A stretch of 33,756 nucleotides of DNA from an uncultured bacterium. GTDB taxonomy: Bacteria > Cyanobacteriota > Vampirovibrionia > Gastranaerophilales > Gastranaerophilaceae. The stretch lies in NCBI GenBank assembly GCA_902797575.1, contig CADBTL010000023.1, forward strand, positions 1 through 33,756. Reading direction: 5' to 3'. Shown here piece by piece: positions 10,928 to 33,723 of this stretch (position 1 is its first letter; every line of letters begins with the position of its first letter). The position numbers and the translations under genes were made by a program. Below the pieces are notes generated by a model. That model saw only the letters and a program-made list of their open reading frames with translations, did no database searches and had not been told where the DNA came from.

Positions 10928-10960
10928 ACTCAGCTCTGTTATTTATAGAGCTGGGTTTTT
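10928..10960 (+). terminator. rpmB terminator, overlapping the fliR stop codon
   Basis: Ten-base stem with one G-U pair, ACTCAGCTCT (10928-10937) / AGAGCTGGGT (10947-10956), nine-base loop, then TTTTT. The fliR stop (10959-10961, minus) lies in the T-run, so the same hairpin sits directly after fliR on the other strand, with a poorer U-tract (CTTTAAAATT). Confidence 0.85.
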
Positions 10961-11735
10961 AGTATATTTGTGAAAATGATAAAAAGAAATCAGATATAAC
11001 ATTAATCAACATTGGTAATATCCAAATCATTATCGCTGCACCAAATACCGGCTTAAACAGAAATGACAATTGAAATACGTTAACTTGCGGAGCCGTTTTG
11101 GATATAACGCCCAGAATAAGATCTTGTCCTAATGTTGCCAAAAGAACAGGAGAAGCAATTTGCAAGCCAATATATAAAACATTTGATGTTGTCGTTACTA
11201 AATAATCAAGATTTATAATTTTTTCTAACGGTATCGCAACCGCATAAATTGGAAAAAGCTCAAAACTTCTTAAAAAAGCATTTATAATCCAATAAAAACC
11301 ACCAATTTCCATAAAGATTATTAATCCCAACAAAGTTATTACACGACTCAAAATCGAAGTTTGACTGTTTGTAGAAGGATCCATAACCATCGCAGACGAT
11401 AAACCCATCTGAGTATTAATCATATCTCCACCGGATTCTATTGCAAGTATTATTATCTGCGCTATATACCCTATAATTGCACCTGCTGCAAAATTCAGTA
11501 ACAAAAGTAAGAGCATAGAATCTTGTGGCGGTGTTGTAGGCTTAAGCAAAGGAGTTAATATTATCGTCAATATAAAAGCAAATGCAAGTTTAACAATACC
11601 TGCAATTTCTTTTCTATTAAATATAGGTGCAAATCTTATAAAGCCCATTAGCCTTGCGAACACTATAAAACCTGCAGAAAACCAACGTGCAAATTCAGGA
11701 AACATTATAGATAATTGACTTATTACTTGATCCAT
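10959..11735 (-). CDS. fliR: Flagellar biosynthetic protein FliR
   Basis: Inner-membrane component of the flagellar type III export gate, which forms the FliP5-FliQ4-FliR1 helical pore. 258 residues, normal length, with about six hydrophobic segments. Family marks are 'ARLMGFIRFAPIF', 'ESGGDMINTQMGLSSAMVMDP' and 'TAPQVNVFQLSF'. It is the last gene of the operon, eight bases after the preceding unknown gene. Its stop overlaps the T-run of the rpmB terminator hairpin. No flhB or flhA follows, unlike many flagellar operons, so these must lie elsewhere. Confidence 0.95.
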   Translation of the reverse strand: MDQVISQLSIMFPEFARWFSAGFIVFARLMGFIRFAPIFNRKEIAGIVKLAFAFILTIILTPLLKPTTPPQDSMLLLLLLNFAAGAIIGYIAQIIILAIESGGDMINTQMGLSSAMVMDPSTNSQTSILSRVITLLGLIIFMEIGGFYWIINAFLRSFELFPIYAVAIPLEKIINLDYLVTTTSNVLYIGLQIASPVLLATLGQDLILGVISKTAPQVNVFQLSFLFKPVFGAAIMIWILPMLINVISDFFLSFSQIY

Positions 11736-11743
11736 ATTTTTAC

Positions 11744-12169
11744 CTATTTTTGATATACAGGAGGTTCGTCAAGATCAAAGCTGTTCTTATTCTCTTCCAT
11801 TTCTAAAATATATTGAGGAAGATCAAGCTCTGTATATTCTTCAACCGGAGGACAATCTACTGTTAGCACTTCGAATTCAGAATTGCACAAAATTTCAGTT
11901 TTATTCTTTGATACATTTACTCCTAAAACAAATTTTTCATTTTTATTTCTTAGCACTGAAAATTTTGTAAAACCTTCTTTTAGAGGATGAACTATAAGAG
12001 TATTTTTATCGTTCATTACGGTTATCAACGGAAAAACATCTATTACATCATTGCGCTGGATTTTGATATCTGTTAGCTTACCATTTGTTGAAATAATACA
12101 ATCCTCATATGCAAACACATTTGGTATTAATAATATAAAACTTAAGATTACTAAAATATATTTTTTCAT
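11744..12169 (-). CDS. Exported protein with a pilus/secretin-N-like (T2SS-T3SS_pil_N-like) domain, in the flagellar operon
   Basis: 141 residues with a clear signal peptide ('YILVILSFILLIPNVFA', cleavage near residue 20). The mature part reads 'NGKLTDIKIQRNDVIDVFPLI..', 'NTLIVHPLKEGFTKFSVLRN' and 'FVLGVNVSK'. This has the layout of the short beta domain at the N-terminus of CpaC/RcpA-type secretins: a polar strand, an 'I/V-D-V' strand, then 'L-x-V-x-P-x-x-x-G-x-T-x-x-x-V'. The match is by eye and moderate. The C-terminal 50 residues are acidic and end in 'DEPPVYQK'. It lies between fliQ (18-base gap) and fliR (eight-base gap), where known operons carry no gene. A periplasmic flagellar accessory role is inferred from position only. 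Confidence 0.6.
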   Translation of the reverse strand: MKKYILVILSFILLIPNVFAYEDCIISTNGKLTDIKIQRNDVIDVFPLITVMNDKNTLIVHPLKEGFTKFSVLRNKNEKFVLGVNVSKNKTEILCNSEFEVLTVDCPPVEEYTELDLPQYILEMEENKNSFDLDEPPVYQK

Positions 12170-13367: not shown

Positions 13368-13814
13368 CTAATGTTTCATAATCTCTGCTAAATTTCTTAT
13401 CACAGAATTATTTGATTTTTTATTATACATATCAGAAGTCAGGTTTAATCCGCTTCGTTTATCCATAAAGCTTTGTCTTGGGAGAGATTCTAAAGTTTCT
13501 TTAAAAGAATTTTCTGTGGGTTTTATACAATTCAGTGACTCTGATGAATTTGCACTTACTGAATTATTGAAAGAATCCAATTTTGAGATAAGACAAGTAT
13601 TATTAACATCACCTGCTATTAAAAACTGTTCTTTTCCAGTTGATACTATGTAAAGATTTTTTCTTTGTCCGAGTGAAATTGTATCTATAATTTTTAGATA
13701 TTTAGATGTTTTGCCCTGACAAACTGATGTTGCATTTTTAAATACAAGCAATGCAACAACTATAACACCAACCATTGCTAGCGTATATACGATAAAATTA
13801 CTAATATATCCCAT
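13368..13814 (-). CDS. fliO: Flagellar biosynthetic protein FliO
   Basis: FliO assists assembly of the FliP ring in the inner membrane. 148 residues: one N-terminal membrane segment ('FIVYTLAMVGVIVVALLVF', about 7-25), then the cytoplasmic family core 'YLKIIDTISLGQRKNLYIVSTGKEQFLIAGD', given here across its length as 'IDTISLGQRKNLYIV' and 'QFLIAGD', which is the FliO hallmark. The rest is low-complexity and Ser/Asn-rich. It stands immediately before fliP in the expected order. FliO is poorly conserved, so the call rests on the core motif and on gene order together. Confidence 0.85.
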   Translation of the reverse strand: MGYISNFIVYTLAMVGVIVVALLVFKNATSVCQGKTSKYLKIIDTISLGQRKNLYIVSTGKEQFLIAGDVNNTCLISKLDSFNNSVSANSSESLNCIKPTENSFKETLESLPRQSFMDKRSGLNLTSDMYNKKSNNSVIRNLAEIMKH

Positions 13815-31983: not shown

Positions 31984-33723
31984 CTATGAGACTAAGAATG
32001 ACTGATAGTTTTGCTGCATTGAAGCTATCATATTTTCCATAGCTTGAAATTTCTTTTCTAATTGTGCTTTATACGTAGTAATACTTGAATTTTTCTTAGA
32101 GATTTTTTCTTCCGTCTTCTTAATATTACTATCTAATGTGCTCGTTTTTACATCAAAAAACCCGCTTACTGCTTTTAAACTTTGTTCAACAGTATCTTCC
32201 ATCATTGCAAATATACCATTATCACCTGATAATAATGATTTTACCGAATCAGGATTCTCTTGCAATGCCTGTAATAATTTATTCTTATCTAATGACAGAG
32301 AATTTGTATTTGTATTTAAATTACCTGCATCTGCAGATGCTGTAGAGATACCAATTTCTGATAATAATTTATATACACCGCCATTTGTTTCATTAGAACC
32401 GTTTGCGTAATTTCTGATTGTATTTTTAAGGCTTGTTAAAGAAGATTCCCCGTGAAGTTCAGCTCCGGATGCTGTAACTGTATCAATTTTGTCAATACAT
32501 GCATTATACGCATCAACAAAAGATTCCAATGCATCAACCAGTCCATCAGTATCTTGGGTAACTTTTAAGGTTGTTTTACCATCTTCTTCAGTATTTTCTC
32601 TTTTTAATGTAAGCGTAACACCATCTAATCTTGAAATATCAGATGTAACTGTATTAGATGTGGATACCATACTTGTTCCGTTTACTGTAAATATAGCATT
32701 TTGCCCAAGTTCTTGAGCTGAAGTAAACATTCTTGTTGCCAAAATATTTCCGTCTTCATCCCATTCCGATGTTGTTAATCCCATAACATCAGTAAAATTG
32801 CTTGTTCCTGCTTCGATATTAATGTATGAAGCACCCTCTTTTGTTGAAGTTATTGATAATTTTCCTGTTGCATCATCCCAGTATGCATATGCTTGAGCAG
32901 TATCACTGCTGTTAATATCTGCTATTAATGAAGATAATGTGGTATTTTCATCAATCGTAAAAGTAGCATCTCCTATAGTAAATGTTCCTGCTTTAATTTG
33001 TGAGCTAAAACCTGCATCTTCAGCAGTTAAAACAGAAGATATTGATGCTTTATATACGGAATTTGTTGATGTATAAGTTCCATCTTCTTGTCTTTCCAAG
33101 CCAAGAAGAGATACTAAGTTAGAAGTATCCGTTGTTGCACCTATATGTATAGAATCATTTTCATTGATTGCTGAAAATCTTAAAACACCGTCTTCATCAA
33201 TATCTAAATTTACACCAATATCTGCAAGACACGCTTTTAAATCTCCGACAGTATCTTCGGAGCCAACACTCACTGTATTTTTATGTCCGTTCACGTATGC
33301 CGTGAACGTACCATTCCCAATACCCAAACTATTTAGTGACGTTTCTTCATCAGCAATATGGCTTGCAGATTCTAATGATGTTGCCTTTGTAAATGTTGCA
33401 AGCTGTTGTACTGAGATATCATAACTTTGCTGCCTTGCACCTGCTTCAACAGTTGCAGTAAATATATCAGCATTTGAAGTTTCTGCAGTTGTACGAGCAA
33501 ATAGGTCAAATGTACCGCCAAATTTTGCATCTGTCAATTTTTCAATAGCAGTTCGTAAAGATGAAACAGCGCTGCGTGTATCATTTAGAACAGACTTTGT
33601 TGTTTGCTGAGATCTTAAAGATGTTTGCATCTTTGTAACATCCGCTTTTTTTACGGATATAAATGCATCGACCCATGAAGATGTATCTAAGCCTGAAACC
33701 AGACCGCTAAATGAAATTGACAT
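31984..33723 (-). CDS. fliD: Flagellar filament cap protein FliD
   Basis: FliD is exported by the flagellar apparatus and caps the growing filament, guiding flagellin folding. 579 residues. The N-terminus 'GLVSGLDTSSWVDAFISV' is the FliD_N hallmark, followed by 'LNDTRSAVSSLRTAIEKL' coiled coil. The middle is Thr/Ser-rich and strand-rich with repeated 'TFTI' / 'FTVNGT' segments of the D2/D3 domains. FliD_C follows: 'LVDALESFVDAYNACIDKID', 'GSNETNGGVYKLLSEIGIS', 'ALQENPDSVKSLLSG', then a C-terminal coiled coil 'KKTEEKISKKNSSITTY' and 'FQAMENMIASMQQNYQSF', shown as short pieces. No signal peptide, as expected. The start has AAAGGA ten bases upstream. Its promoter lies past the window end; flagellin and fliS are not seen here. 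Confidence 0.95.
   Translation of the reverse strand: MSISFSGLVSGLDTSSWVDAFISVKKADVTKMQTSLRSQQTTKSVLNDTRSAVSSLRTAIEKLTDAKFGGTFDLFARTTAETSNADIFTATVEAGARQQSYDISVQQLATFTKATSLESASHIADEETSLNSLGIGNGTFTAYVNGHKNTVSVGSEDTVGDLKACLADIGVNLDIDEDGVLRFSAINENDSIHIGATTDTSNLVSLLGLERQEDGTYTSTNSVYKASISSVLTAEDAGFSSQIKAGTFTIGDATFTIDENTTLSSLIADINSSDTAQAYAYWDDATGKLSITSTKEGASYINIEAGTSNFTDVMGLTTSEWDEDGNILATRMFTSAQELGQNAIFTVNGTSMVSTSNTVTSDISRLDGVTLTLKRENTEEDGKTTLKVTQDTDGLVDALESFVDAYNACIDKIDTVTASGAELHGESSLTSLKNTIRNYANGSNETNGGVYKLLSEIGISTASADAGNLNTNTNSLSLDKNKLLQALQENPDSVKSLLSGDNGIFAMMEDTVEQSLKAVSGFFDVKTSTLDSNIKKTEEKISKKNSSITTYKAQLEKKFQAMENMIASMQQNYQSFLVS

Follow-up and report, generated by a model that had tools for sequence, protein, structure and literature searches.

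The genes that lie around a small open reading frame in the window, by which we mean the whole 33,756-nucleotide stretch analysed here (contig CADBTL010000023.1 of an uncultured member of the Gastranaerophilaceae), are those of a second, non-flagellar export apparatus. The reading frame, here called X, is confirmed as a genuine gene encoding a small secreted protein and very probably belongs to this second system, in which it probably acts as a periplasmic accessory subunit of type III export, possibly a collar or adaptor at the gate or its ring. The larger finding is the second system itself: earlier papers took non-flagellated members to carry flagellar gene sets that are incomplete, and these "incomplete flagella" genes of Gastranaerophilales are a distinct, near-universal export apparatus that coexists with the true flagellum. 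Gene X provides a marker and the first envelope component for it.

Gene X and its protein

The original prediction placed a 141-residue open reading frame between fliQ and fliR, and its coordinates and gaps were exact, X being separated from the FliQ-family and FliR-family genes of the second system by 18 and 8 bp (Table 1). The order fliQ-X-fliR is kept in all 30 of the best homologous loci, in-frame stops are absent from nearly all of them, and dN/dS values of 0.05-0.25 between close pairs indicate purifying selection, so that X is not a chance reading frame. Homologues usually start 0-4 bp from fliQ and in many genomes the stop codon of X touches or overlaps the fliR start, suggesting translational coupling. 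Pfam assigns the surrounding genes, all in the same direction, to FliP, FliQ, FliR, FliO and a FliM/N-type protein, the last upstream of fliO2 in a conserved arrangement.

As the X alignment was too divergent for a direct scan, FliP2 was used as the anchor for a survey of GTDB genomes, yielding 78 readable loci; where a taxon is named, it is in most cases Candidatus Gastranaerophilales, Melainabacteria or Scatousia. X separates fliQ2 from fliR2 at 42 of these, and in 35 the two genes are spaced by 0-30 bp without X; at one locus (L218, 4908-5309) an unrelated four-helix S23/IVP-like gene occupies the place of X. The gene is found at this spot across families f1, f2, f3 and f6, and homologues beyond the reach of a single-sequence search sit there in f2, f3 and f6 and in genera g14, g16, g20, g23 and g25. 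Thus the expectation that relatives would always carry the gene between fliQ and fliR holds as to its site, but many genera lack it, fliQ and fliR being directly adjacent in their second cluster. X is therefore optional in the second system and lost in many genera, and since many genomes without it keep the rest of the system, the gate can do without it. It is probably ancestral to the order, with many subsequent losses; no X was found between second-type fliQ and fliR in other orders of the class, and a search for plasmid-borne relatives returned none. In genus g15 (L011, L012, L018), a tandem pair of fliQ2 genes precedes X.

The signal peptide proposed for X is borne out by a family-wide sequence pattern, with an A-x-A-like cleavage site before YED/FED in the alignment, and by an N-terminal helix in the AlphaFold model. 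This model (mean pLDDT 89.6) contains a confident all-beta, Ig-like domain at about 95 and a less certain tail, in keeping with the beta structure expected of the protein. The domain had been called by eye as the pilus-N domain, and this call stands for the family, supported by HMM, profile-profile and fold results, but not for the window protein alone, which has no significant Pfam match, PF13629 included. PF13629 (T2SS-T3SS_pil_N) is matched by 19 of 30 close homologues (best E 1.9e-5) and is the top Pfam family among them; a homologue from a flagellated genus (G133) reaches 23.4 bits against a gathering cut-off of 23, over model positions 3-70 of 72. Alignment of the X family by hhalign with pilus-N domains taken from Tad secretins of the order itself gave a probability of 82-86% and a score of 32.0, compared with 22.4 for the best of 200 column shuffles and nothing for a reversed profile. 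A published table lists PF13629 among Pfam families of Ig-like fold (PMC8877628).

Structural searches with the model were less specific. Foldseek against the PDB returned nothing below E 0.001, and no significant sequence relatives were found in the PDB. The VIA-align matches listed are generic Ig-like domains only (Z < 8), among them N domains of VirB9/TraO-type T4SS core complexes, and a solved PF13629 domain is absent from the matches listed, an absence that says nothing against the domain call. We rejected X as a secretin, the protein being only 141 aa with no match to the PF00263 channel domain, and also as a FlgA/SAF or FliO protein, as neither family is among the matches listed for X or its homologues and FliO is encoded separately. 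The PF03958 N domain is not among the matches of X or of its 30 close homologues.

Table 1. Features of the X locus (positions in the window) and candidate substrate genes at other loci
Feature	Position	Strand	Basis
X, secreted periplasmic protein, 141 aa, ATG start	11744..12169	-	ORF; conserved position; purifying selection
X signal peptide, residues about 1-20	12110..12169	-	family-wide sequence pattern; AlphaFold helix 2-13
X Ig-like beta-sandwich, PF13629 (pilus-N)-related, residues about 21-105	11855..12109	-	AlphaFold pLDDT about 95; HMM/profile matches
X acidic proline-rich tail, repeated LDxPP-like motifs, residues 106-141	11747..11854	-	alignment; lower pLDDT, one short helix
fliR2, FliR/SctT-family gate protein	10959..11735	-	PF01311 E 3e-52; below TIGR01400 and TIGR01401 cut-offs
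fliQ2, FliQ/SctS-family, long C-terminal extension, 163 aa	12188..12679	-	PF01313 E 7e-17; 52.8 bits vs cut-off 88.9
fliP2, FliP/SctR-family, no flagellar FliP leader, 212 aa	12703..13341	-	PF00813; 215 bits vs cut-off 217.45
fliO2, FliO-family	13368..13814	-	PF04347 E 2e-8
fliM/N-like (SctQ-like) C-ring protein, 365 aa	13867..14964	-	PF01052 E 4e-19; TIGR02551 54.9 bits, below cut-off
MGLxxSQxRLL proteins	L100 13118-14941; L118 18857-19183; L119 132-458; L120 15589-15915, 17202-18464; L169 1513-3243		

A second export system beside the flagellum

The second apparatus comprises FliE, FliF, a FliG-like protein, FliH, FliI, FlhA, FlhB, FliO, FliP, FliQ, FliR and a FliM/N-like protein. At one locus (L117) its genes include those for FliE, FliF, FliH and FlhA and one at the place of FliG; this last gene, between fliF2 and fliH2, has no Pfam or NCBIfam match and is FliG-like by position alone. 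FliE of this system scores 61.1 against the TIGR00205 cut-off of 30. The gate proteins fall below the flagellar NCBIfam cut-offs (bits/cut-off: FliP 215/217.45, FliQ 52.8/88.9, FliR 149.7/168.6, FlhA 695.7/772.1), all four of which are exceeded by the true flagellar copies, and also below those for injectisomes (SctR 186.6/208.6, SctS 48.1/76.5, SctT 117.2/163.05, SctV 580.4/692.25), each protein being nearer by score to the flagellar family than to that of T3SS. The window FliP2 is also shorter than canonical FliP (252-276 aa) and FliQ2 much longer than canonical FliQ (about 90 aa); the C-terminal extension of second-type FliQ occurs in other orders of the class as well (L221-L234), for total lengths of 123-335 aa.

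FlhA2 forms its own clade (100/100) on a long stem, apart from both the order's flagellar FlhA and SctV. The tree places it as sister to flagella at 86/86, a placement that is insecure, and the data are also compatible with one clade for FlhA2 and the flagellar FlhA of the order (AU p 0.21), so that a duplication inside the lineage is a possible origin. Second-type FliP is also present in class families f9, f10, f12, f14 and f15, which dates the second gate to before the order.

X had been proposed as an accessory of the flagellum serving the gate, a ring or passage through the wall, a reading for which its neighbours, as members of the FliP/Q/R/O/M-N families, and a host genome that encodes flagellin, FliD and another complete flagellar gene set would speak. 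A FliD-like cap gene (31984-33723), 20 kb from X on the same contig, likewise indicates that the host has a true flagellum. However, the flagellar fliP-fliQ-fliR of the host genome lies elsewhere, on contig C101 (L097), with no insert, and is likewise separate and uninterrupted at L102 and L105, the latter being a canonical set among flgH, flgI, flgK and flgL-type genes and flhB-flhA. Of the 146 genomes sampled from the order, 145 have FliR and 55 have flagellin, and among the 36 that match X strongly (E < 1e-20) flagellin was not detectable in 24. Among 19 scored genomes, the nine without flagellin each have one full-length FliR, FlhA, FliF, FlhB and FliI, and those with flagellin mostly have two copies of each protein, the exceptions being in fragmented assemblies. 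The gene was expected to be missing from unflagellated genomes, and the outcome is the opposite, with at least 24 X-bearing genomes lacking detectable flagellin and the second system kept by non-flagellated relatives. The neighbours of X, moreover, score below flagellar equivalog cut-offs that the true flagellar copies exceed. A flagellar role is highly improbable, and we rejected it on the separate flagellar fliPQR and the distribution of flagellin. What survives of the original prediction is a secreted beta protein with a pilus-N-like domain that is produced together with an export gate and recurs at this position in relatives.

Several clusters of the second system adjoin genes for proteins (108, 420 and about 580 aa) with a common N-terminal motif resembling MGLxxSQxRLL and a C-terminal one resembling (D/S)KNIxxxFK. 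These proteins match no Pfam family and are candidate axial or secreted substrates. It is quite conceivable, if somewhat short of probable, that members of the Gastranaerophilales, flagellin-free gut lineages among them, have preserved a third type III export lineage that is neither flagellum nor injectisome. Such a machine would retain FliE, FliF, FliO and a C-ring-like protein, export axial-type substrates of its own and, in many species, use X at the gate. A further FHIPEP protein of about 490 aa, the third, consists of the FlhA cytoplasmic domain only (L133 2658-4124; L134 7305-8783); its gene adjoins BamA-like and Skp/OmpH-like genes and is present in most of 26 genomes searched.

Traces of both systems may already be present in the literature. 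In the gene list of Di Rienzi et al. 2013 (PMC3787301), fliP, fliQ and fliR of ACD20 have numbers 6, 7 and 9 on a single contig, so that one gene absent from the list falls between the latter two, by inference X; as these ACD20 genes were put into flagellar trees (PMC3787301), the trees may mix both systems. Soo et al. 2014 (PMC4040986) reported only a subset of flagellar genes in six of nine genomes. A search of the open-access literature on type III secretion in Melainabacteria and Gastranaerophilales found no paper on the second system. If this system secretes, it could offer common gut bacteria a route for interaction with hosts or other microbes, and it may represent a living intermediate for the origin of injectisomes from flagella.

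Possible roles of X

In the reading we favor, the signal peptide would export X to the periplasm, where it is predicted to fold as a single Ig-like domain of the pilus-N (PF13629) type, its proline-rich tail probably binding a partner. Because X shares an operon with the FliPQR gate, assembly on the periplasmic face of that gate or of the FliF-type ring is most likely. There, X might serve as a collar or adaptor, guiding or docking cargo that crosses the envelope, a mechanism we put forward only tentatively, and one that would be comparable by analogy to RhcC1, the stand-alone secretin N domain of a rhizobial T3SS. Several observations weigh against this reading: the absence of X from many genomes with an otherwise retained second system, the lack of a secretin gene close by, the generic nature of the fold matches and the missing Pfam hit for the window protein.

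A related but unlikely alternative has X acting on the outer-membrane side or at a pore, as a docking factor between the second system and a type IV pilus/type II-type secretin. X is indeed a secretin-N-type domain without a secretin, all 26 genomes tested carry a secretin, and T3SS have on three or more occasions acquired a secretin from another system (PMC3459982). No secretin gene was found near the second-system clusters examined, however, and in the two genomes read the only secretin lies in an operon with GspE/F-type genes, far from the second system; in addition, many genomes with both a secretin and the second system have no X. It is also rather improbable that X serves as a periplasmic chaperone, a plug or a cell-wall-binding spacer for the gate or an axial protein, with no function as a ring adaptor. 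A lone Ig-like domain of small size, followed by a tail that is acidic and rich in proline, would suit such a task, rapid sequence change and repeated loss would agree with an accessory role in general, and some divergent members weakly match AMIN, CagX or Big_2. X has no catalytic or peptidoglycan-binding signature, however, and the best match of its family is specifically to pilus-N.

Comparison with known systems

The pilus-N (PF13629) domain is found at the N terminus of Tad/CpaC secretins. Like X, the PF13629 domain of these Tad-type (CpaC/RcpA) secretins is an exported, predicted Ig-like beta domain, the profile match between the two is significant, and they share the motif register PV.SI.I.NP.IADV....G.T.......V.V. 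Unlike the secretins, X is a stand-alone protein of 110-160 aa with a proline-rich tail, no secretin domain and a place in an export-gate operon, and the window X itself scores below the Pfam cut-off for PF13629. The N domains of VirB9, TraO and CagX from T4SS outer-membrane core complexes share the Ig-like fold with X at Z of about 5-6, and two distant X homologues match CagX (E 4.6e-5 and 6e-4). This is a weak, generic likeness of fold, and no T4SS genes are present at the X locus.

The flagellar gate FliPQR-FlhAB and its associated proteins have homologs in the second system in FliO/P/Q/R, FlhA/B, FliE/F/H/I and the FliM/N-type protein. The second system differs from the flagellum in falling below the equivalog cut-offs, in its own FlhA clade, long FliQ and leaderless FliP, and in being kept in genomes without flagellin. 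The "Myxo" NF-T3SS of Myxococcales resembles it as a flagellum-derived system with no linked secretin (PMC3459982) and with FliO (PMC12248157). Compared by description only, the two differ in FliE and a gene at the place of FliG, which are present in the second system and reportedly lacking in the Myxo system; no X-type protein has been described for the latter.

A parallel to X itself is RhcC1, a separate secretin N-terminal part kept among the core genes of rhizobial T3SS and proposed to link the inner ring to a Tad-type secretin (PMC3459982). In both cases a secretin-N-type part has a gene of its own. RhcC1 contains the N domain PF03958 and functions alongside RhcC2, the product of a Tad-type secretin gene, whereas X is of the PF13629 type and has no accompanying secretin gene, so the likeness is by analogy only. 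On that analogy, X would exemplify the RhcC1 design independently.
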